Under the pieces are notes generated by a model. The model had not been told where the DNA came from. It did no database searches and saw nothing but the letters and a program-made list of their open reading frames with translations. Source: Acidobacteriota bacterium (GTDB taxonomy: Bacteria; Acidobacteriota; Thermoanaerobaculia; Gp7-AA8; JAHWKK01). From it: DNA of 64,000 nucleotides. Both the position numbers and the translations under genes were made by a program. The stretch's first letter is position 1. The number at the start of each line of letters is the position of its first letter. Positions 22,914 to 42,346 of the stretch are shown piece after piece. The stretch is taken from positions 1 to 64,000 of the forward strand of contig JAHWKK010000019.1 of the NCBI GenBank assembly GCA_019347945.1. The letters are read 5' to 3'.

Positions 22914-23696
22914 ATGGCGAAGCTGAAGAGGCGAAAGCAGTACGGCGTATGCACCTTCTGCGGCAAGGAAGGTGAGGTCACTGACGAACACATTTTTCCG
23001 GAGAGCTGGTATCCCGACGACACCCCTAAAAACGAGCCGAAGTGGATCGCCCCCTCGTGCTACGAGTGCAACCATGTGAAGTACGCCCCTAAGGAGGCGC
23101 GCATCTTCCCGTTCCTTGCGATGACAGCTGAACCAGATCATCCCGGAGCGAAAGGAATCGGCCAGCGAGGCTTTCGCGCGGCCGACGAGACTCAAGGAAA
23201 AAATGATAGAGACAAGGCTGCACGCGCGCGGGTGCGTGAGTTGATGCGGGAGCGGATGCAAATCGTCAAGCCGCATGAAGTAGCCGAGGGTGCTGACTAT
23301 CTCGGTTGGCGCCATCAGAACAATGAACTCTTGACGACATACGTGAAGGAGGAAGACATTCTTCCTGTGATTGGGAAGATTGCGCGGGGCGTGATGTATC
23401 TAGTGGCGGGAAAACGCGTTGATGAGCGGTACAGTGTTCACCCGTTTCGCGAGTTGTCGAAGGTGCCCTCCAAGTTCAAGGATCGGAAATCAGACTACTC
23501 AACCTCGTGTGGCCCGGGAATAGTCGTGGACATCGCCTTCTTCCAGCCACATCTCGAGCCGCCGGCGGGGTTCTTACAGATGAAGGTTTGGGATACGCAT
23601 ATTTGGTATGTCGCCATCATTCCGAAGCCCGAGCTTCGAGAGGAGCTCTTGAAGCCCTCTTTTACGGAGTCGTTGAAGAGCGAATCGGGCGAATAG
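22914..23696 (+). CDS. HNH-endonuclease-like protein
   Basis: A 260-residue protein with a split zinc-HNH signature in its first 60 residues: CTFCGKEG, then VTDEHIFP with the central His, then CYECNHVK. Spacing and motifs fit the HNH superfamily that cuts DNA. The C-terminal ~180 residues have no motif I know. It has lower GC and different codon use from its left neighbours and opens the accessory island. A GAGGACAGG ribosome site lies upstream. Likely part of a defence or mobile-element module (inference). Confidence 0.65.
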   Translation: MAKLKRRKQYGVCTFCGKEGEVTDEHIFPESWYPDDTPKNEPKWIAPSCYECNHVKYAPKEARIFPFLAMTAEPDHPGAKGIGQRGFRAADETQGKNDRDKAARARVRELMRERMQIVKPHEVAEGADYLGWRHQNNELLTTYVKEEDILPVIGKIARGVMYLVAGKRVDERYSVHPFRELSKVPSKFKDRKSDYSTSCGPGIVVDIAFFQPHLEPPAGFLQMKVWDTHIWYVAIIPKPELREELLKPSFTESLKSESGE

Positions 23697-23738
23697 CCGA
23701 CGTCTTACTCAGCGCGACAGCGAGCGGGAAACACGACA

Positions 23739-24572
23739 TTGTTCGACTACCTATTAAGCGGGAATCATTCGGAGATAGCGAAATTCGAAGAGCGCAATAG
23801 GAAACTCATCAGAGTCCTGCCCGACCTTCAGAACGCGGTCGAAAGGGCCTATCGCGACCTGCCGTCTGGCGAGAATCCCTCCGATCTTGTAATTTTCGCT
23901 CTAGGAAGACGGTGCGCTATCGACTTCGACGACATCCTGCTCCTCTGCACTGCGGGCCGGCGGTTCAACGCGAGAGGAGTGATCCGTGGAATGTTCGAAC
24001 GGATTGTCACGGCGTGGCATCTTCATCTCCATCCTGAACAAACAATGGACTTTGTCGACTATGACTTCATTCAGAGGCGGAAGGTGGCTAGAAAGATCGA
24101 GGACGTCTGGGGCGTAAAGGCTGAGAATGAGAAGGCCTACGGCGCTCTCCTTCAAAGCGCCGCCGAAGTGGAGTCGCGTTTTCGGAAGACTAAATGTAAG
24201 AAGTGCGAGACGACGGAGCTCAACCACAGTTGGTCGAAAATGGACATGGTGAGCATGGCAGCCAGCGTAGGTGAGCGCCTCGAGCAGCTCACGATCATGG
24301 CTTACTATGAGACTCTCGGCCATTCCCATGCGACATTCAGGTCGATGTCCGAGCAGTACCACGAAGTGGATGGAGCGATCCATCCGGCACCAGTCGATTA
24401 CGGAGCTGTCGACAAAATCATGGAACTCGCACATTTGATGCTACTCGAGTCATTGCTCCTGCAGCATGAACACTTTGAAAACGAAGAGCTGCTCCACCTC
24501 TGGAGGGGATGTATGGCTGACTTCCGAGAGATATGGCAAGCCAGTAGAGAGGTGAGGCCTTGTGATATTTGA
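23739..24572 (+). CDS. DUF5677-like protein
   Basis: A 277-residue, mostly helical cytosolic protein starting at TTG 23739 with GAGCGGGA upstream. The segments FNARGVIRGMFERIVTAWHL, MAYYETLGHSHAT and YDFIQRRKVARK resemble the DUF5677 family, often found in accessory regions. A CKKCETTELNHS cluster may bind a metal ion. The function is unknown. It is followed, with an 11-base overlap, by a short ORF that is probably its partner. Confidence 0.55.
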   Translation: MFDYLLSGNHSEIAKFEERNRKLIRVLPDLQNAVERAYRDLPSGENPSDLVIFALGRRCAIDFDDILLLCTAGRRFNARGVIRGMFERIVTAWHLHLHPEQTMDFVDYDFIQRRKVARKIEDVWGVKAENEKAYGALLQSAAEVESRFRKTKCKKCETTELNHSWSKMDMVSMAASVGERLEQLTIMAYYETLGHSHATFRSMSEQYHEVDGAIHPAPVDYGAVDKIMELAHLMLLESLLLQHEHFENEELLHLWRGCMADFREIWQASREVRPCDI

Positions 24573-24834
24573 CGCCCGGTATTGGAAAAAAGACCTTCGA
24601 CGCAGTGCGTCGGCGCTGGTTCGTCGTTCCACGCAGATTCGATGGAGCTCAGCCTCGTATTCGCTACTCGAACGATCAGTCATGATCGGTTTCTTCGCGG
24701 TTCGGCGTCTGATCGAGAGTCGCCGGTTGAAAGAGGACTTTGACGTCATTTCGGTGGATGTGGTCTCTTTTCCAACTCTAGGAAAAAACACTGGATATTC
24801 GGGGAAGCGGCAGGATAGCTCAGGCCCGTTGTGA
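24562..24834 (+). CDS. short hypothetical protein coupled to the DUF5677-like gene
   Basis: A 90-residue ORF starting at GTG inside the end of the upstream gene, so translation is probably coupled. The N-terminal part (ARYWKKDLRR, then ERSVMIGFFAVRRLIES) reads like the start of a larger helical protein, and the C-terminus is abrupt, so truncation is possible. I do not recognise a named family. It meets the minus-strand small ORF tail to tail with a 15-base overlap. Confidence 0.45.
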   Translation: MIFDARYWKKDLRRSASALVRRSTQIRWSSASYSLLERSVMIGFFAVRRLIESRRLKEDFDVISVDVVSFPTLGKNTGYSGKRQDSSGPL

Positions 24835-24999
24835 GGAACTTTTGGAGGGCCGTTTGCTCGTTTGTCTGGTGGAATCTCGGCGAGGCCGACCGAGATCCCG
24901 AGGCAGGGCAGCACGGGTCGGGGTCTCGCCAAACGTTCCCTTTGGAGAGGTATCGTTATCTTCCGCCATGGTCGCGATCGAGTTGCCTTTCTTGGTCAC
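24820..24999 (-). CDS. tiny basic ORF 3 of the membrane-protein cassette
   Basis: A 59-residue Ser/Thr/Arg-rich ORF starting with GTG that overlaps the stop of the previous tiny ORF by one base (TAGTG). Its composition is like the two upstream small proteins: hydrophilic, cationic, proline-bearing and predicted disordered. An internal ATG at codon 11 is an alternative start. Support comes from the coupling and composition only. Confidence 0.4.
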   Translation of the reverse strand: MTKKGNSIATMAEDNDTSPKGTFGETPTRAALPRDLGRPRRDSTRQTSKRPSKSSSQRA

Positions 25000-25166
25000 T
25001 AGGTTGTTCCTTTCTTCTGAGAGTTTGGCGCCTTCGAAGCGGTGGGCCGGGTGCCTGAGCCAGACTTGCTGGTTTTTTCTTTGGGGAGCTTAGCCCCGTC
25101 GGTAGCGTAGCCCTTCTCAAGCTTTTCCCAGCCTGAGGAATCGTTCTTCTTTCGTCGGTCGTTCAT
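24999..25166 (-). CDS. tiny basic ORF 2 of the membrane-protein cassette
   Basis: A 55-residue Lys/Ser/Thr-rich protein (start MNDRRKKNDSSGWEKL, a KGYATDGAKLP segment, end KKGTT). Its ATG overlaps the TGA of the preceding small ORF (TGATG) and its stop overlaps the next GTG. An AGGGAGAAAAAG ribosome site lies just before the start. No hydrophobic segment and no known domain. Confidence 0.55.
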   Translation of the reverse strand: MNDRRKKNDSSGWEKLEKGYATDGAKLPKEKTSKSGSGTRPTASKAPNSQKKGTT

Positions 25167-25321
25167 CACTTTTTCTCCCTAGGTTTTGTTGGTTTCGGAT
25201 GCGGGATGCGGTCTAGAGGCAACTTAGCTGGATCTGGAGTATGCCCGCCCTGATGTCTCCTACGGCCCGGATCCGAAGTTTGTTTCGCTTTGCCGTCCAT
25301 CCCCCTGTTCTTGTCGGACAT
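25166..25321 (-). CDS. tiny basic ORF 1 of the membrane-protein cassette
   Basis: A 51-residue protein starting MSDKNRGMDGKAK and ending PTKPREKK, rich in Lys, Arg and Pro and with no hydrophobic stretch. An AAAGGAAAG ribosome site 5 bases before the ATG supports this start. Its first 62 bases overlap the 3' end of the membrane-protein gene in another frame, so the pair is probably translated from one message. Confidence 0.6.
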   Translation of the reverse strand: MSDKNRGMDGKAKQTSDPGRRRHQGGHTPDPAKLPLDRIPHPKPTKPREKK

Positions 25322-25907
25322 CGTGCTTTCCTTTCGTTGAGTTGATGCTTGCAAAAAGGCCGAATAAAAACACTGCGATAAAGAATGCGATCGCGGCGCC
25401 AAAGTTCAGCCAGCGTGTGTACTGCGTATACATATTGCGATCCTGATCATTCGGATGAATCCAGTCGTGGTACCAGACATCGAGGTAGGAGATTTCGACT
25501 TCGGTAGCCTTCTGGCTGGAGAGAAGCGAAAACAGGATGAACAGGATTGCGATTGCGAAGAGCAGCCATGCCGAGTTGAGGTACGCGAGTGAGTCCGCCG
25601 CAGGTGTTGTAAACTGAAGAAAAGTTACCGACAGCGCGATCGCACCCGACGAGAGCGTCAACACGGCGCGATCGAAACTTCCTGAAGTCTGACGCTTGGA
25701 ATCGATGAGCCGGTTGCGCTCCGCAATGTAGAGAGGGTAGATGTCAGGCTCACTCTGGTCGGGTATCGCAGGCCCTGGATCCGAAACTGCGCGGCCGCGT
25801 CCTAGACCCTCCTCGCAGTTGCTTGTTGCTTGACGCCGCGTATCAGGCTTTTCGCAGTGAGTCGGCGTTTCAGGGGTGTCGATAATTCTGCCCGGCTGTT
25901 CGTTCAT
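25260..25907 (-). CDS. three-helix membrane protein of unknown function (SLATT-like layout)
   Basis: A 215-residue protein from ATG 25907. Residues 1-50 are hydrophilic. A short amphipathic YIAERNRLIDSKRQ helix leads into three membrane helices: about 70-90 (LTLSSGAIALSVTFLQF), 98-120 (LLFAIAILFILFSLLSS) and 156-178 (FGAAIAFFIAVFLFGLF). A hydrophilic tail follows. The helix-pair-plus-coil layout resembles SLATT-type membrane effectors of defence systems, but I cannot confirm family membership. Three tiny cationic ORFs follow in overlapping order. Confidence 0.65.
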   Translation of the reverse strand: MNEQPGRIIDTPETPTHCEKPDTRRQATSNCEEGLGRGRAVSDPGPAIPDQSEPDIYPLYIAERNRLIDSKRQTSGSFDRAVLTLSSGAIALSVTFLQFTTPAADSLAYLNSAWLLFAIAILFILFSLLSSQKATEVEISYLDVWYHDWIHPNDQDRNMYTQYTRWLNFGAAIAFFIAVFLFGLFASINSTKGKHDVRQEQGDGRQSETNFGSGP

Positions 25908-26101
25908 CGATTCGTCCAATTCGTGCGGTGCTCTCCAGCTGTGATGGCTCGCTCTGACTCGTTGGTATACCACCGAATGCAAAGATTGTCAGATATCTTA
26001 TCGTTGATCTTCAGGGCGCTCCTAACCCTTCTCCTGCGCGCGTGGTCGGCGCCGTATTATTGAGGGGTCAGGAAAACCGCTAGAGTATTAGGGACTCTTA
26101 G

Positions 26102-26398
26102 TCACGTCCTGGTGTGACCCCATGCCCAGTCTCCTCCGACCGAGACGAAAATTTCCGACGTAAATCCTCTTCTTAGAAAGGCTCTCTTTACTTGCTCTTG
26201 GACATCATTCCGGACGGCCGCCGCACTCTGGCCATTGAATTTTCCTGCTGTCGTCGTGGTCGGCAGCCGAACCGAGTTGCCGCTGTCGCTTGTGAGGGTT
26301 GAGGAGAGTCCCATGGCTTCCAGGTCCTGGTAGGCGTTGAGATAGTCCTCTCGGGAGGCGTCTTCAAGGTCGAAGGTGCAGACGACGAAGTAGCTCAT
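26102..26398 (-). CDS. 98-residue hypothetical protein paired with the YegP-like gene
   Basis: Starts at ATG 26398 with GGAGCC upstream. The protein begins SYFVVCTFDLEDAS and ends with VGGDWAWGHTRT; the alternation of beta strands and helices suggests a small compact domain. No named family comes to mind. It lies 57 bases after the YegP-like gene on the same strand, so the two are probably cotranscribed. Confidence 0.6.
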   Translation of the reverse strand: MSYFVVCTFDLEDASREDYLNAYQDLEAMGLSSTLTSDSGNSVRLPTTTTAGKFNGQSAAAVRNDVQEQVKRAFLRRGFTSEIFVSVGGDWAWGHTRT

Positions 26399-26455
26399 TC
26401 CAGTGGCTCCTATATTTTTCTGGGGCTGCCTCGGCACCAGCCCCAGTTGACGTTG

Positions 26456-26617
26456 TTACCTGACAGGTGCGTTACTGGACTGCTTGACGAGGCTGATTGC
26501 GTGCTGACAGTCGGAGCGGTTTCGATAGCCTTCGCCCTGCGCGACGATCTCGTGGTTTCCCGCCTTGAGGCGCCATCGGTAGTGGCCCTGCGTGTCCGTA
26601 TAGATCTCGAAGTACAT
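26456..26617 (-). CDS. YegP-family (DUF1508) protein
   Basis: A 53-residue single-repeat protein with the DUF1508 pattern: FEIYTD, YRWRLKAGNHEIVAQGEGY and a following helix. The ATG at 26617 is preceded by AAAGGAGAAG. Longer in-frame upstream sequence has no ribosome site and runs into the regulator's operator. The family is short and of unknown role, often adjacent to accessory genes. Confidence 0.75.
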   Translation of the reverse strand: MYFEIYTDTQGHYRWRLKAGNHEIVAQGEGYRNRSDCQHAISLVKQSSNAPVR

Positions 26618-26696
26618 CGGCTTCTCCTTTCCGACACCGTCTCTGCCCCGCTTGCCGATGGAGAAAGGAGCCTTCAGGACGGCATCTGTGAATTCT

Positions 26697-26750
26697 GTTC
26701 GCAAACACGAACATTTGTGAACCGCGCTATATTTCCTGTTGTTCACGAAA
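26697..26750. promoter_or_regulatory. likely operator for the XRE regulator
   Basis: Four related half-sites of GTTCRYRAA type lie between the divergent genes: plus at 26697-26705, minus at 26704-26712, minus at 26714-26722 and plus at 26741-26749. The first two form a GTTCG/CGAAC palindrome, and the last two form an inverted pair around a TATATT -10-like hexamer (26729-26734). The XRE gene starts 33 bases downstream, as expected for autoregulation. Confidence 0.5.
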
Positions 26751-26782
26751 ACTGGTAGGATTTCACTCAGGGGGTCCCGGAG

Positions 26783-27199
26783 ATGGCTACGATGGGTGAG
26801 CGGATACGTGAACTACGAGATCGGGAGGCCCTCACGATCGAGGAACTGGCGGCGCGGAGTGGAATGAGCAAAGGCTTCATCAGCGAGATCGAGAACGACA
26901 AGCGAAAGCCTGGGGCGGATTACCTATTACGTCTTGCCAACACGCTCGGTGCCTCGCTTGATTACTTGATGCGCGGCGAAGCGGAAGAGACTGCCGTCAC
27001 GAGGCCCGTGATGATTCCACACGAGCTCTCGGTCTTGGCGGAGGAACTCGATCTTTCTTACCCCGAAACTCTGGAAGTCTTGGCAGCACACAATTCTGTG
27101 GTGGCGAGGCGCAGCAGGCGCGGTGTGAGGAAGTTCACCGTGGAGGACTGGCGGCGACTCCATGATGCGATTCGACAGGTGTATGACGGTGGGGACTGA
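26783..27199 (+). CDS. XRE-family transcriptional regulator
   Basis: A 138-residue DNA-binding protein. Residues 6-60 are a Cro/C1-type helix-turn-helix (IRELRDREALTIEELAARSG then MSKGFISEIENDKRKP). The C-terminal ~70 residues are helical and may bind its partner. A CCGGAG ribosome site precedes the ATG. It overlaps the metallopeptidase gene by 17 bases, the usual arrangement of ImmR-ImmA / PezA-like pairs in which the protease cleaves the repressor. Confidence 0.88.
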   Translation: MATMGERIRELRDREALTIEELAARSGMSKGFISEIENDKRKPGADYLLRLANTLGASLDYLMRGEAEETAVTRPVMIPHELSVLAEELDLSYPETLEVLAAHNSVVARRSRRGVRKFTVEDWRRLHDAIRQVYDGGD

Positions 27200-28178
27200 T
27201 GTTGAATTTTACGCTGATGCTTTGGCGCGAGACCTAGGCATCAAGCCAAGTGATCTCTCGTCAACTGAGGCAATTCTCGAGCACGTGCGACAGAAAGTTC
27301 TCAGATTTCTCGACGAGGTGCCGTGCGAGAATCTTGAAGGTCTGCTCCAACTCGTCGCGAACAAGGTCGGCACGCGCTTCGAGAGAGTTGTCACAACCGG
27401 CGACTTGAACCGTATCAAAGCAAAATATGTTGATCGTGGTGAACTGGGATTCGTTCAACTCGACAGCTTACTCGAAGACGATTCCTTTGGCGTCACGATT
27501 CGACTACGCCACCCGCGTCCGGGTGACTTGCCATTCGTATCGGTGATCGACTGCAGGGGCGAAAAAGCATACCGCGAGTACTTCACTCAGTGGCACGAGG
27601 TCGGACACCTCCTGATCCTCACACGCCAACAACGACTGATGTTTCGCAGAACCCACGAAGCCCGAAAACATCCTGAGGAACGACTCGTGGACGCGATCGC
27701 AGGCAGGATCGGGTTCCTCGCTCCGATGGTTCGACCACACCTCAGCCTGCCGCTGACGCTGCAGGAGATAGACGACTTTCACGAGAGATGTTGCCCACAG
27801 GCAAGCCGCGATGCCACCATCATCGGAGTGATCAACGCCGTCAATCAATCGCTCGTTTACCTCCAAGCTCGACCAGGACTCAAGAAGAAACACCAGCGAC
27901 AAAAAAACTTCTTTCCGGAGCCGCCTCAACTCCGAGTACGAAACATCCGAACAAACCAAACCGCGAAGGACCAGAACCTGATCATCTACGAAAACATGCG
28001 AGTACCTGAACGATCTATCATCAGCCGGATACACGAAGGCCTACTCCAAGCAGGCAACGCTACGGAGAACCTTGACTGGTGGGAAACATCGAGCGGCGGA
28101 AGCCAACAGTCAAGGCCTGTTCAGGTAGATGCACGAAGACGAGGAAACATCGTAGAAGCCATCATTATCGGGCTCTGA
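27183..28178 (+). CDS. ImmA/IrrE-type zinc metallopeptidase
   Basis: A 331-residue protein starting at ATG 27183 within the end of the XRE gene. It carries the zincin motif HEVGH at 138-142, followed by an acidic pair in HPEERLVDAIA about 25 residues later as the likely third ligand. The rest is specific to this protein. Proteases of this family inactivate their paired XRE regulator on DNA damage or other stress. This one may control the adjacent restriction system or the divergent YegP-like genes (inference). Confidence 0.78.
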   Translation: MTVGTDVEFYADALARDLGIKPSDLSSTEAILEHVRQKVLRFLDEVPCENLEGLLQLVANKVGTRFERVVTTGDLNRIKAKYVDRGELGFVQLDSLLEDDSFGVTIRLRHPRPGDLPFVSVIDCRGEKAYREYFTQWHEVGHLLILTRQQRLMFRRTHEARKHPEERLVDAIAGRIGFLAPMVRPHLSLPLTLQEIDDFHERCCPQASRDATIIGVINAVNQSLVYLQARPGLKKKHQRQKNFFPEPPQLRVRNIRTNQTAKDQNLIIYENMRVPERSIISRIHEGLLQAGNATENLDWWETSSGGSQQSRPVQVDARRRGNIVEAIIIGL

Positions 28179-28293
28179 CCTTAAACGCGCCTCGACCGAT
28201 GACCCGGACTCGAGGCGTTGAGCTAAAATTGTTGCCTCTGATCCTGACTCTCACGGGTGGGTACACCTCCGGGAACCGGATGGATGGACATCA

Positions 28294-29778
28294 ATGATCA
28301 CTGGCGAGCTCAAATCCAAAATCGATCGCATCTGGGACACCATGTGGTCCGGTGGTATCTCCAACCCGCTTTCCGTCATCGAGCAGCTTACCTACCTGCT
28401 TTTCATCAAGCGCCTCGACGAGCTCCAGACACTCAAGGAAAACAAGGCCGCGCGCACCGGCAAGCCGGTCGAAGACCCGATCTTCGAAAAGGGCGAGGAT
28501 GCGCTCCGCTGGTCCCGATTCAAAGAGACTGCACCCGAGCAGATGTTCGAGACGGTCAAAGACGAGGTCTTCCCGTTCATCAAGTCGCTCGGCTCGAACG
28601 GCCACGACGACCCCGAGCGCGCCAGCACCTACACGCATCACATGAAGGATGCGATCTTCATGATGCCGACGCCGCGCGTGCTCGCCAACGTCGTCGATCA
28701 GCTTGATGCCATCGACATGGCCGACCGCGACACCAAGGGCGACCTCTACGAGTACATGCTCGGCAAGATCGCCTCGGCGGGGCAGAACGGCCAGTTCCGC
28801 ACGCCGCGTCACATCATCAGGCTCATGATCGAGATGACCGCTCCGACGCCGAAGGACGTCATCTGCGACCCGGCGTGCGGCACGGCCGGGTTTCTGATCG
28901 CCGCGTCCGAGCACCTCGTCGATCACTACAGCGACGTGATCTACAAGTCCGAGAATTCCCGCAGAAAGTTCAATTCGGGCACGTTCCACGGTTATGACTT
29001 CGATTCGACCATGCTCCGGATCGGGTCGATGAACATGCTGCTGCACGGCGTGGAGAATCCCGACATCCGCTACCGCGACTCGCTGGCGCAGGCCGACCAG
29101 CTCGAGGAAGACAAGTACACCCTCGTCCTGGCCAATCCTCCGTTCGCGGGCAGCCTCGACTACGAATCGACGGCGAAAGATCTCCTGCAGGTGGTGAAGA
29201 CGAAAAAGACCGAGCTGCTCTTTGTCGCGCTGTTCCTCCGTCTGCTGCAGACCGGCGGCCGTGCGGCGGTCATCGTGCCCAACGGCGTGCTCTTCGGCTC
29301 GTCCAAAGCCCACAAGGCGCTGCGCAGGATGCTGGTCGAGGAGCAGAAGCTCGACGCCATCATCTCGATGCCGTCCGGCGTGTTCAAACCGTACGCCGGC
29401 GTTTCCACCGCTATTCTGTTCTTCACGAAGACCAACTCCGGCGGCACGGACGAGGTCTGGTTCTACGACATGCAATCCGACGGGTTCTCGCTCGACGACA
29501 AGCGTACCCCGCAGCCCGGTAAGTCCGACCTACCCGACATCCTCGATCGGTGGAACAACCTCGCGGGAGAAGCGGACCGGGAGCGTACCGACCAGAGCTT
29601 CCTCGTCCAGAAATCGGAGATCGCCGACAACGACTACGATCTTTCCATCAACCGATACAAGGAAGTGGAGTACGAAGCCGTGGAATACGATCCGCCGCAG
29701 GTGATTCTCGAGCGGCTCGCGAAGCTGGAAGCGGAGATCGAGACCGGGCGGAGGGAGCTCGAGGAGATGCTGCGGTGA
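28294..29778 (+). CDS. hsdM: type I restriction-modification methyltransferase HsdM
   Basis: N6-adenine DNA methyltransferase subunit, 494 residues. The helical N-terminal domain (IDRIWDTMWSGGISNPLSVI) is followed by SAM motif I DPACGTAGFLI and catalytic motif IV NPPF. Methylates the host recognition site with HsdS and protects the genome from HsdR. A TAAAAT hexamer at 28223 may belong to its promoter. The stop overlaps hsdS by 4 bases. Confidence 0.97.
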   Translation: MITGELKSKIDRIWDTMWSGGISNPLSVIEQLTYLLFIKRLDELQTLKENKAARTGKPVEDPIFEKGEDALRWSRFKETAPEQMFETVKDEVFPFIKSLGSNGHDDPERASTYTHHMKDAIFMMPTPRVLANVVDQLDAIDMADRDTKGDLYEYMLGKIASAGQNGQFRTPRHIIRLMIEMTAPTPKDVICDPACGTAGFLIAASEHLVDHYSDVIYKSENSRRKFNSGTFHGYDFDSTMLRIGSMNMLLHGVENPDIRYRDSLAQADQLEEDKYTLVLANPPFAGSLDYESTAKDLLQVVKTKKTELLFVALFLRLLQTGGRAAVIVPNGVLFGSSKAHKALRRMLVEEQKLDAIISMPSGVFKPYAGVSTAILFFTKTNSGGTDEVWFYDMQSDGFSLDDKRTPQPGKSDLPDILDRWNNLAGEADRERTDQSFLVQKSEIADNDYDLSINRYKEVEYEAVEYDPPQVILERLAKLEAEIETGRRELEEMLR

Positions 29779-30953
29779 AGTGGGAGCAGGTTCCAATTGG
29801 CAAGGTTTGTCACGTTGTCGCTGGTGGGACACCCAAGCGCTCGAAGGCTGAATTCTGGGGCGGCAACGTTCCTTGGGTGAAGATTTCGGACATGCTCCAA
29901 GGAACAATCCAGTGTACTGACGAGTGCATCACCGATCAGGGCCTGAAGGAGAGTGCGGCAAAGCTTCTGCCGGTCGGTACGATATTGATCTCAATCTTCG
30001 CAACGATCGGCCGGACTGCAACTCTCGGAATCGAAGCCGCTACGAACCAGGCGATCGCCGGTGTGCTGCCGAAAGAGGCAGGGATGCTTCATCCGCCGTT
30101 CCTTCGCTACTGTCTTGAAGATCGAGCTGCACATCTCCAAAATCTCTCGCGGGGAGTAGCGCAAGCGAATATCAACGGATCGGTCTTGAAGCAGACCCCG
30201 ATCCCCCTCCCGCCACTGCCGGAGCAGAAGCGGATTGCAGCGATCCTCGATGCGGCGGATTCGTTGCGCGCCAAACGCCGCGAAGCACTTGCCCAACTCG
30301 ACACACTCCTCCAGGCCACCTTCCTCGACCTTTTCGGCGATCCGGTCACTAACCCGAAGGGATGGAAGGTCGTTGAACTCGGACAGCACACGAGCAAAGT
30401 TGGAAGCGGAGCCACGCCACGTGGCGGCGAGGACTCGTACAAAGACGAGGGAGTTGCGCTCATCCGCAGCATGAATGTCCGCGACGGCTCGTTCCTTTGG
30501 GACGATCTTGCAAGGATCGACGACGCGCAGGCACAGAAGCTCGACAATGTAGTCGTCCAGGGTGACGACGTCCTCCTTAATATCACCGGTGCGTCGGTCG
30601 CTCGGGTTTGCTCTGTTCCGCTTGAGGTTCTTCCCGCGCGTGTAAATCAGCACGTTTGTATCATTCGACCCTCCGGCACGATCAACGCCAGATTTCTAGA
30701 GAAACTGTTGCTGTCGGGATCGATGAAGCACAAGCTCCTCGCCATAGCGGAGAGCGGGGCGACTCGCCAGGCAATAACTAAGTCACAGGTCTTATCGCTG
30801 ACGATTCCGCTTCCGCCGATGTCCGAGCAGCAGCGGTTTGCCCGCATCGTCTCCTCTACAGAGCAAGAAGTGGTCGGCCAGAACCGGCATCTCGCCGAGC
30901 TCGACAACCTCTTCGTCTCACTCCAGTCACGGGCGTTCCGGGGAGAACTCTAG
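29775..30953 (+). CDS. hsdS: type I restriction-modification specificity subunit HsdS
   Basis: A 392-residue specificity subunit starting with GTG in the end of hsdM. It has two target-recognition domains, each closed by a conserved helical segment: PLPPLPEQKRIAAILDAADS in the middle and PLPPMSEQQRFARIV near the C-terminus. The two half-specificities define a bipartite DNA site. Longer upstream readings overlap hsdM and are not credible. Confidence 0.95.
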   Translation: MKWEQVPIGKVCHVVAGGTPKRSKAEFWGGNVPWVKISDMLQGTIQCTDECITDQGLKESAAKLLPVGTILISIFATIGRTATLGIEAATNQAIAGVLPKEAGMLHPPFLRYCLEDRAAHLQNLSRGVAQANINGSVLKQTPIPLPPLPEQKRIAAILDAADSLRAKRREALAQLDTLLQATFLDLFGDPVTNPKGWKVVELGQHTSKVGSGATPRGGEDSYKDEGVALIRSMNVRDGSFLWDDLARIDDAQAQKLDNVVVQGDDVLLNITGASVARVCSVPLEVLPARVNQHVCIIRPSGTINARFLEKLLLSGSMKHKLLAIAESGATRQAITKSQVLSLTIPLPPMSEQQRFARIVSSTEQEVVGQNRHLAELDNLFVSLQSRAFRGEL

Positions 30954-30962
30954 GGCAGCGCG

Positions 30963-33900
30963 ATGGCCGTGGACGTCTCCCCCAACTTCGCGTTCCTGGC
31001 CCAGGAGTTTTTCCACGTGGCCGAGTCGGCGACAATGGCCGAGCGGAGCATCTACGGGGATCCGCGGGCGTCATGCTTCCACGCCCGCCACACCCTCGAA
31101 CAGCTCGTCAAGCGCATCTTCAAACTCGATGAGCGGCTCACACCGCCGCGCGTGACGAACCTCGACGGGTATCTGAACGAGCCGCCGTTTCGAGAGATCG
31201 TGGGCGAGACGATCTGGCAGAAGGCCGAATACGTCCGCAAAGCCGGCAACGACGCCGTCCACGGCAACAAGACCCCCGAGCCGGCAGCGGCGCTCGACGT
31301 CATGCGCGAGCTCTATCACCTCCTCTACTGGGCCGGCCGCACCTATCTGCGCAAGGGAGCGGAGAAGCTCGAGGGGGTGACGTACGACGAATCGATCATC
31401 CCTCCGGCGCTGGCCGGTGCGCCCGTGTCGATCGAGAAGCTCGAAGCGATCACGAAAGAGCGGGATGCCGCCGAGGAGAAGCGCCGCGAACTGGAGACGC
31501 AGGTCGAGGAGCTCCGGCAGCGCGTAGCAGCGATCCGTGCGGAAAACGAGAAAGTCCCCGACAGGCACGACTACGACGAAGCGGCGACGCGCAAGCGGAT
31601 CATCGACCTGGAGCTCGCCCGGGCGGGCTGGGCGCTCGATCAGCCGCGCGACCGCGAGTACGAAGTGACCGGAATGCCGAAACGCTCGGGCGAGCCGGCC
31701 GAGGCGGGCGGCAGGGGATACGCCGACTACGTCCTCTGGGGCGACGATGGCAGGCCGCTGGCCGTGGTCGAGGCGAAGCGGACGATCGTCGACTCCCGCC
31801 GCGGCCAGGAGCAGGCGCGGCTGTACGCAAACTGCCTGGAGACGATGCACGGGCAGCGGCCGCTCATCTACTTCACCAACGGGTACAAGACCTGGCTCTG
31901 GGACGACCTGATGTATCCGCCACGCGAGGTGGCAGGATTCTGCAAAAAGGACGAGCTGGAGACGCTGATCCGCCGCCGGGAGCAGCGAAAACCGTTGGAC
32001 GTGGCGCAGGTGAAGGACGAGATCGCCGGGCGGTACTACCAGAAGCGCGCGATTGGAAGCATCGCGCAGCACTTCGCGTCGGGGCATCGCAGGGCGCTGC
32101 TGGTCATGGCGACCGGTACCGGCAAGACCCGCACAGCGGTGGCGCTCGTCGACCTGCTGCAGCGGGCCGGCTGGGTGAAGCGGGCGCTCTTCCTCGCCGA
32201 CCGGAAGGCGCTGGTCCGGCAAGCGGTCAATGCGTTCAAGGCGCATCTACCCGAATCGAGTCCGGTCAATCTCGTGACGGAAAAGGACAAGTCCGGGCGG
32301 GTTTACGTCTGTACGTATCCGACGATGATGGGGCTGATCGACGAAACACGACCCGGTGCCGCCGGCAGCGAGACACGCTTCGGAGTCGGGCACTTCGACC
32401 TAGTCATCATCGACGAGGCGCACCGGTCGGTGTATCAGAAGTACGGTGCGATCTTCCGCTACTTCGATTCGCTGCTCGTTGGGCTGACCGCGACGCCGCG
32501 CGATCAGGTCGACCGCAATACCTACACGCTCTTCGGCCTCGAGCCGGGCATGCCGACCGACGCCTATGAGCTGGAGACGGCGGTGGCCGACGGCTTTCTC
32601 GTGCCGCCGCGGGTCGAGCAGGTGAACCTGAGATTCCCGCGTGAGGGGATCAGCTACGACGACCTCACCGAGGAGGAGCAGGATGAGTGGGAGTCGACCG
32701 ACTGGGGTGACGATGGAGAAACCCCTGCGATGCCCGACCGCGTTGAGCCGCAGGCGATCAACAACTGGCTCTTCAACGCCGACACGGTGGACAAGGCGCT
32801 CCAGCACCTGATGGAGCACGGACACAAGGTCGACGGCGGTGACCGGCTGGCCAAGACGATCATCTTCGCCCGCAGACACGAGCATGCGCTTTTCATCGAG
32901 CAGCGGTTCAACCACCACTACCCGCATCACGCCGGTAAGTTCGCGCGGGTGATCGACAACTACGAGACGTATGCCCTGAGCCTGATCGACGACTTTTCGC
33001 GGAAGGAGAAGGACCCGCACATCGCGATCTCGGTGGACATGCTCGACACGGGGATCGACATACCGGAGGTCGCGAATCTCGTCTTCTTCAAGCCGGTGTA
33101 CTCGAAGATCAAGTTCTGGCAGATGATCGGCCGCGGCACGCGCCTGGCGCCCGACCTCTTCGGTCCTGGGATGGACAAGGAAGACTTCCGCATCTTCGAC
33201 TTCTGCTACAACTTCGACTTCTTCAGGGTGAACCCGGACGGGATCGAGCGGACGGGCGGGATGCCGCTGGGTGCCCGCCTGTTCCGCTCGCGCGTGCAAC
33301 TTCTCGGACACCTGCAACGAGTGCTCGACCTCGATGCGGACGACAGGGTGCGCACGCGCGTGGCCGACGCTCTGCACGCCGAGGTGGCGGCGATGAATCC
33401 CGATAACTTCGTGGTGCGGATGCATCTGGAGCCGGTGCAGCGGTTTCAGGAGCGGGCGGCGTGGAACGCGTTGAGCGAAGAGGATCGTCAGGCGCTGGAG
33501 GAACGGATTGCGGGGCTCCCGAGCGAGATCGAGACGGACGCGATCGAGTCGCGTCTCTTCGACATGATGGCGGTGCGGATGCAGCTCGCGCTCATCGAGA
33601 ACGATGTAAGCACGTTCGAGACGGCCCGCAACCGGGCGGTGGCCCTCGCGATGCTGCTCGAGGAAAAGAGCTCGATCCCCGCGGTACGGGATCAGCTCGG
33701 TTACCTCGCTTCGATGCAGGAGACCGAGTTCTGGACCGGCATCGGGGTGGCTGACCTCGAGGAGATGCGGCTGCGGCTGCGTGGGCTGGTGCCACTCCTC
33801 GACAGGAAACAGCGACACATCGTCTACACCGACTTCGAGGATCAGATCACGGACGTCGTTTACGACGGCGCGGTCGGGATCCCGCGGATGACCGGAGCTC

Positions 33901-34388
33901 AGTACCAGAAGAAGGTCGAGCAGTTCCTGCTGAACAATCTGAACGACATCGTGATCCATCGGCTGAGGACGAATCAGCCGCTTTCGGAGTCGGATCTGGA
34001 GGAGCTGGAGAGGATGCTCGTGGAGATCGGCGAGGAGGACGGCGAACAATTGCTCTCGGGTCTGCTGGCGCGAACCGAGACGCCGTCGCTCGTCTATTTC
34101 GTCCGCCGCCTCGTCGGCATGGACCGGAGCGCTGCGCAGGCAGCATTCGCGGACCTGTTGAGCGACCGGAGCCTGACGCCTCCGCAGATTCGATTCGTCG
34201 AGATGATCATCGAGCAACTGACCGCCCGCGGCGTAATGGAGCCCGGCGCGCTCTACGAAGCGCCGTTCACAAGCCTGCATGCGGGCGGGCCCGACGAGCT
34301 GTTCGCCGGGAAGGAAGAAGTGATCCGGGGAATGTTCGACGCGATCATCGCCACCCAGCCACCGCGGGCGGCGGGCGAAGTGGGGTAA
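30963..34388 (+). CDS. hsdR: type I restriction-modification endonuclease HsdR
   Basis: Motor and nuclease subunit, 1141 residues. Order: an N-terminal helical DUF4145-like domain (about 1-130), a coiled region (155-200), the PD-(D/E)xK nuclease with the VVEAK motif near 267, then a superfamily 2 helicase with MATGTGKT near 382 and IIDEAHRS near 481, GLTATP, and GRGTRLAP of motif VI. The C-terminal ~300 residues are helical, as in EcoEI-type HsdR. It lies 9 bases after hsdS. The extra DUF4145-like start is not in every HsdR. Confidence 0.95.
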   Translation: MAVDVSPNFAFLAQEFFHVAESATMAERSIYGDPRASCFHARHTLEQLVKRIFKLDERLTPPRVTNLDGYLNEPPFREIVGETIWQKAEYVRKAGNDAVHGNKTPEPAAALDVMRELYHLLYWAGRTYLRKGAEKLEGVTYDESIIPPALAGAPVSIEKLEAITKERDAAEEKRRELETQVEELRQRVAAIRAENEKVPDRHDYDEAATRKRIIDLELARAGWALDQPRDREYEVTGMPKRSGEPAEAGGRGYADYVLWGDDGRPLAVVEAKRTIVDSRRGQEQARLYANCLETMHGQRPLIYFTNGYKTWLWDDLMYPPREVAGFCKKDELETLIRRREQRKPLDVAQVKDEIAGRYYQKRAIGSIAQHFASGHRRALLVMATGTGKTRTAVALVDLLQRAGWVKRALFLADRKALVRQAVNAFKAHLPESSPVNLVTEKDKSGRVYVCTYPTMMGLIDETRPGAAGSETRFGVGHFDLVIIDEAHRSVYQKYGAIFRYFDSLLVGLTATPRDQVDRNTYTLFGLEPGMPTDAYELETAVADGFLVPPRVEQVNLRFPREGISYDDLTEEEQDEWESTDWGDDGETPAMPDRVEPQAINNWLFNADTVDKALQHLMEHGHKVDGGDRLAKTIIFARRHEHALFIEQRFNHHYPHHAGKFARVIDNYETYALSLIDDFSRKEKDPHIAISVDMLDTGIDIPEVANLVFFKPVYSKIKFWQMIGRGTRLAPDLFGPGMDKEDFRIFDFCYNFDFFRVNPDGIERTGGMPLGARLFRSRVQLLGHLQRVLDLDADDRVRTRVADALHAEVAAMNPDNFVVRMHLEPVQRFQERAAWNALSEEDRQALEERIAGLPSEIETDAIESRLFDMMAVRMQLALIENDVSTFETARNRAVALAMLLEEKSSIPAVRDQLGYLASMQETEFWTGIGVADLEEMRLRLRGLVPLLDRKQRHIVYTDFEDQITDVVYDGAVGIPRMTGAQYQKKVEQFLLNNLNDIVIHRLRTNQPLSESDLEELERMLVEIGEEDGEQLLSGLLARTETPSLVYFVRRLVGMDRSAAQAAFADLLSDRSLTPPQIRFVEMIIEQLTARGVMEPGALYEAPFTSLHAGGPDELFAGKEEVIRGMFDAIIATQPPRAAGEVG

Positions 34389-42270: not shown

Positions 42271-42346
42271 GGGGCTGTAGCTCAGCTGGGAGAGCGCCTG
42301 AATCGCACTCAGGAGGTCGTCGGTTCGATCCCGATCAGCTCCACCA
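42271..42346 (+). tRNA. tRNA-Ala (anticodon CGC)
   Basis: A 76-base tRNA with all arms: acceptor GGGGCTG pairs with CAGCTCC (one G-T), the D-arm contains GTAGCTCAG, the anticodon stem is CCTGA/TCAGG with loop ATCGCAC (anticodon CGC), and the T-arm carries GGTTCGATCCC. Discriminator A and an encoded CCA follow. G1 to G4 and the acceptor end suit alanine. Confidence 0.95.

Follow-up and report, generated by a model that had tools for sequence, protein, structure and literature searches.

A putative CapH/CapP-type repressor-protease pair beside a divergent operon of yegP and a GhoS-fold gene

Two adjacent genes in the 64,000-nucleotide stretch of DNA analysed here (hereafter, the window) encode an XRE-family regulator and a HExxH metallopeptidase. 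They probably constitute a CapH/CapP-type switch that acts mainly on the divergently transcribed operon, this operon being turned on by proteolytic cleavage of the repressor. The observations that support such a switch are the gene order, the protease motif, the predicted fold, the conservation of half-sites and the presence of divergent immune genes in related loci; what we infer is DNA binding, repressor cleavage, a damage signal and a role of the cargo in defence or stress. The XRE protein would bind half-sites of the GTTCG type between the two divergent transcription units, silence the promoter of the operon made of yegP and a GhoS-fold gene, and probably repress its own promoter too. A stress signal would then activate the CapP/IrrE-fold protease through its C-terminal sensor-type domain, and the activated protease would cleave the repressor and thereby switch the divergent operon on. 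For CapP and PprI, the activating signal is single-stranded DNA according to three reports (PMC13373217, PMC10904395, PMC10233336).

The gene pair and the divergent operon

The pair and the operon facing it comprise the following genes:

26783-27199, plus strand: XRE-family repressor, CapH/DdrO-like, 138 aa (Pfam HTH_19/HTH_3)
27183-28178, plus strand: HExxH metallopeptidase with a C-terminal sensor-type domain and a predicted CapP/IrrE fold (ATG at 27183 preceded by AGGTG)
26456-26617, minus strand: yegP-like DUF1508 protein, 53 aa, first gene of the divergent operon (PF07411, E 8.8e-16)
26102-26398, minus strand: predicted GhoS/Cas2-fold protein, 98 aa, second gene of the divergent operon (AF2 pLDDT 92)
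25260-25907, minus strand: predicted membrane-type protein (an ORF, its membrane nature judged by eye), possible third gene of the operon after a gap of ~195 nt

The overlap between the regulator and metallopeptidase genes reported by the initial annotation is present (ORFs 26783-27199 and 27162-28178); the longest protease ORF of the ORF list begins at 27162, and the overlap amounts to 17-38 nt depending on the protease start chosen. The same order, with the XRE gene immediately 5' of the metallopeptidase gene, was found in the window and in 24 of 25 related loci, which belong mostly to Acidobacteriota and deltaproteobacterial lineages. These 25 loci consist of 23 from a scan of genome contigs, two of which repeat finds made in a sample of the phylum, plus L007 and L008; L009 and L010 duplicate L024 and L032. 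In L029 the XRE gene is cut by the contig end, and the exception to the order is L034, where the protease is frameshifted and the XRE gene was not found; this broken protease gene (L034:8248-9326) resembles a decaying copy. In L032 (the same locus as L005/L006), an insertion with istA/istB-type ORFs, recognised by eye, splits the protease gene, and an HsdM gene lies beyond it. Relatives of the protease are rare: they were found in none of the 147 other genomes of its own class and in 4 of the 395 other genomes of the phylum sample, and sequence searches returned none from the plasmids, viral contigs and phages covered.

The best PADLOC match of the repressor was capH (E 7.2e-13, residues 3-83), a match that rests on the HTH and is shared with other XRE models. 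A profile built from 23 XRE proteins matched 7t5u_A, which we take to be the CapH DNA-binding domain, as well as DdrOC (6rnx, 6rmq; positions 5-134). A DdrO-like C-terminal domain is suggested by this full-length profile, which matches DdrOC over 5-134, but the C-terminal half alone gave chance-level matches only in the PDB, with no DdrO among them.

The window protease had no match in Pfam, NCBIfam, PADLOC or PHROGs, and Peptidase_M78 (PF06114) matched neither this protein, nor any of the 22 family members, nor any protein of its own genome. In an alignment of 22 proteases, the W, H, E and H of the HExxH motif did not vary, nor did a Glu further downstream (22/22). The AlphaFold (AF2) model of the protease, obtained with a pLDDT of 90.5, found its best PDB match with both programs in Thauera CapP, 7t5t (Foldseek: E 1.6e-9, TMq 0.44, rmsd 10.8; VIA: Z 15.7, 243 aligned residues, rmsd 5.8, 12% identity), and the next VIA matches were four PprI/IrrE entries (Z 14.5-15.3), tied with CapP within ~1 Z. 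The structural match to CapP extends to the last residue of the protease. Segment 188-331 of the model is similar, in addition, to many PAS-type sensor domains (VIA, Z 6-8), which would fit a sensor part of the protease. By contrast, a profile of the 22 proteases recovered no PDB chain at E values up to 10, though the PDB includes CapP, and a search with the single protease gave two chance-level matches only. Because the family reaches no PDB chain by sequence, we liken it to CapP in function and claim no membership by sequence. The window protein sits on a long branch (1.92) in a tree of 23 proteases. The analogy with ImmR/ImmA and DdrO/IrrE drawn by the initial annotation finds support in the fold and the gene order, but the best match, CapH/CapP, was absent from it.

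On the divergent side, yegP is the sole copy in the genome and is preceded by a good ribosome site. The 98-aa protein matched phrog_22820, a family of unknown function. With its model, Foldseek placed GhoS (2llz) at rank 1 with an E value of only 1.7e-3, and VIA aligned 83 residues of GhoS (Z 9.1, rmsd 2.8), followed by Cas2 (Z ~8) and VapD (Z 7.5); the predicted structure is thus a ferredoxin-like fold nearest GhoS. The four sequences compared all carry an Asp where strand 1 ends (4/4; Asp10), a position that we take to be the catalytic place of Cas2 and VapD. The protein shares 50% identity with a protein of L012, and 57 and 53% identity with proteins in two viral contigs; none of the other genomes in a phylum sample of 396 yielded it. 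The viral relatives lie at L037:3452-3745 and L038:5001-5297, the latter among genes that are, by eye, of phage structural type. No family matched the 25260-25907 protein above cut-off. Profile searches and hallmark queries detected no recognised immune gene in this operon, and a limited literature search found no account of a yegP plus GhoS-fold operon.

Half-sites and candidate promoters

The gap that separates the XRE gene from the yegP-like gene measures 165 bp and holds a cluster of half-sites together with a candidate promoter:

26697-26705, plus strand: putative operator half-site GTTCGCAAA, exact match to GTTCRYRAA
26704-26712, minus strand: degenerate half-site GTTCGTGTT, 7/9 match to GTTCRYRAA, ~10 bp from the first half-site
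26714-26722, minus strand: putative operator half-site GTTCACAAA, exact match to GTTCRYRAA
26741-26749, plus strand: putative operator half-site GTTCACGAA, exact match to GTTCRYRAA
26692-26721, minus strand: candidate promoter of the divergent operon, TTCACA-N18-CAGAAT, reading toward yegP and overlapping three half-sites

The initial annotation had described four half-sites surrounding a -10-like hexamer. Three of them are exact, whereas the fourth, on the minus strand at 26704-26712, is degenerate; likewise, the hexamer TATATT is present at 26728-26733, but a promoter scan gave it no partner -35. The sole promoter-like match in the gap was the one running from 26721 to 26692 on the minus strand (9/12); one such match is no more than shuffled sequences give (1.0 on average), and its placement agrees with several relatives. 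Throughout the 64-kb window, GTTCRYRAA occurs 10 times (4.05 expected). Nowhere else in it are three exact matches packed into 60 bp, and none of 20,000 Markov-1 simulations of the 165-bp gap reached three. The proposed genome scan for the half-site pair was run: the pattern occurs at one place and a reversed-pattern control also at one, and the scan consequently says nothing on a wider regulon.

In the relatives, GCGAAC/GTTCGC is present in 20 of 22 upstream regions, where random 200-bp stretches drawn from these loci would give 3.27 (the motif counts exclude L008, a near-duplicate of L007, and L029 and L034 lack an upstream region that could be used). A de novo search seeded with words of the upstream regions only yielded TATAGCGAACTT with a total score of 357.7, compared to 234-252 for four control sets, for which fewer seeds were used. 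The half-sites of the window share only the core of the relatives' motif, and all but one score poorly against it (7.79 bits for the half-site at 26697-26705, rank 10 in 64 kb). In seven loci (L012, L014, L018, L020, L021, L032 and L033), a half-site abuts the -10 of the candidate divergent-operon promoter, a position that would suit a repressor well; at the half-sites of L007, L008, L015, L016, L022 and others there is no clear promoter. Half-site spacings cluster near 10-11, 30-31 and 40 bp, i.e., approximately whole helical turns, and 16 of 5000 random sets were equally coherent, a figure obtained with related, non-independent loci and a pattern set picked post hoc; we take the spacing as supportive only of an operator.

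Related loci and the target of the pair

In the 22 loci whose divergent side could be counted (L029, L030 and L034 were excluded because of contig ends, or of a broken protease without an XRE gene found), we looked for hallmark genes of CBASS, Pycsar and E1/E2 systems. Such a gene is present on the divergent side in 20 of the 22, a raw count, not set against a background rate, from queries drawn from divergent sides; downstream of the protease, none was found in these loci. The divergent gene is (i) a CD-NTase in nine loci (L013, L015, L016, L017, L018, L022, L024, L026 and L027), (ii) a Pycsar cyclase in two (L007 and L008), or (iii) an E1/ThiF protein in eight (L014, L019, L020, L021, L023, L028, L031 and L033), the E1 gene of L023 being 2.2 kb off and not adjacent. 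In L025, where genes are poorly called, a patatin-like CapV match stands alone and no CD-NTase was found. No hallmark gene was found on the divergent side of L012, L032 or the window. The domains of the hallmark genes were confirmed for a sample of loci. The first divergent gene often encodes a small protein: yegP heads a CBASS-type operon in L026, DUF3892 is found in L016 and L022, and DUF2188 in L032. A conserved 57-aa family without a Pfam match heads the divergent operons of L012, L014, L019 and L020, all but one of which carry E1-type cargo. The idea that regulator clade and cargo go together was rejected (15 label changes in the tree of 23 proteases, against a shuffled mean of 14.5); the closely related L012 and L014 differ in their cargo. 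As the protease tree does not track operon type, these sequences suggest that the trigger has been exchanged between immune systems.

Because the immune genes of the relatives are divergent and none was found downstream, we read the pair as a repressor of the divergent promoter and its stress-activated protease. The initial annotation had counted the YegP-like pair among the possible targets, and the relatives support the divergent operon as the main one. The initial annotation had also named hsdMSR as a perhaps additional target; the relevant features are as follows:

28187-28218, plus strand: stable hairpin without a T tract, between the protease gene and hsdM (-20.5 kcal/mol for a 67-nt stretch, z -3.18)
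28294-34388, plus strand: hsdM, hsdS and hsdR, type I restriction-modification system (PADLOC MTase_I 1.6e-196, REase_I 1.1e-179; hsdS called from its position and its similarity to the hsdS of L022)

It is unlikely that the pair mainly controls this restriction-modification (R-M) system, delaying or inducing its expression. The hsdMSR genes do lie behind the protease gene in the same orientation, and in 3 of the 25 loci R-M genes likewise adjoin the protease gene in the same direction, making co-transcription plausible there: hsdM starts 4-5 nt past the protease in L016 and L022, and vsr and dcm follow in L019 (R-M genes are convergent in L032). However, these three loci stand against the 20 of 22 with a divergent immune hallmark, and in the window no GTTCRYRAA half-site lies near hsdM, which is separated from the protease by a 115-nt gap containing the hairpin. 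A scan found no canonical terminator in this gap, and we therefore do not call the hairpin a terminator. The suggestion of the initial annotation is thus weakly supported, and hsdMSR, which read-through might still reach, is at best an indirect target.

Even less probable is an ImmR/ImmA-type switch that would serve an integrated mobile element instead of an immune system. The two-gene layout and the HExxH motif are those described in PMC10233336, and the local G+C content (0.54-0.60 over 23000-31000, compared to 0.62-0.66 on the flanks) suggests an acquired segment. The window's only tRNA is at 42271, and the segment has none at its edge. Beyond the divergent operon, at 22914-24572, lie an HNH-type gene with weak PADLOC PDC-M01B matches and a DUF5677 gene, possibly a further part of a defence island. 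A mobile-element switch is difficult to reconcile with protease relatives that are absent from the plasmids, viral contigs and phages searched and that adjoin immune genes. The lowest probability of all goes to a toxin-antitoxin pair, with the XRE protein as the antitoxin of the protein encoded behind it: the genes overlap, the HTH gene comes first and weak matches to HipB/HigA-type antitoxins exist, but these matches span the HTH alone, and the product of the second gene carries the metallopeptidase motif intact and, in its model, a CapP/IrrE fold. A HipBA/HigBA-type identity was rejected, as the matches are below cut-off.

Under the preferred reading of a cleavable repressor acting on the divergent promoter, the protease belongs to a putative repressor-cleaving family that goes unrecognised by the models tried from Pfam, NCBIfam, PADLOC and PHROGs, and that profile-based defence annotation would therefore miss. 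Its presence marks out the divergent operon as a candidate for an immune role and so offers an experimental way into YegP (DUF1508), which is widespread and of unknown function, and into the GhoS/Cas2-fold protein, present in viral contigs too. More speculatively, the yegP and GhoS/Cas2-fold operon might be an undescribed damage-induced defence or growth-arrest module, in which a ribonuclease-fold effector and its DUF1508 partner would be silenced by a cleavable repressor and backed by the adjacent type I R-M system; the protease family might then be a portable trigger, swapped among immune operons and often first releasing a small protein of the DUF1508/DUF2188/DUF3892 type.

Comparison with known switches

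The pair is probably a new, sequence-divergent form of a known switch type, with an unusual cargo. Its closest counterpart is CapH/CapP of Thauera sp. K11, a CBASS-associated repressor and its ssDNA-activated protease: the gene order is the same, CapP is the top structural match over most of the protease chain, capH is the top PADLOC match of the repressor, and immune genes adjoin the pair in relatives, as in the known system. In contrast, the structural alignment with CapP has 12% identity with no detectable sequence match, and the divergent operon of the window consists of yegP and a GhoS-fold gene, which is no known immune system, with only R-M genes downstream. With DdrO/IrrE (PprI) of Deinococcus, the window pair shares the protease fold (Z 14.5-15.3), a repressor profile matching DdrOC and, presumably, the cleavage logic; however, its genes overlap and its probable target is local and divergent. 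The genome scan, with a single place for the half-site pair and a single one for the control, gives no evidence of a wider regulon. ImmR/ImmA of ICEBs1 and TnSmu1 also place an XRE repressor next to a HExxH protease, but the window protease has no Pfam Peptidase_M78 match and its relatives flank immune genes. Finally, CapK/CapS (EMBO J 2026, PMC13373217) is a local regulator found beside immune operons, yegP (57 neighbour cases) and R-M systems (88 of 443), as here; it is described there as a kinase with a phosphorylated repressor, whereas the window pair would combine a protease with a cleaved repressor.
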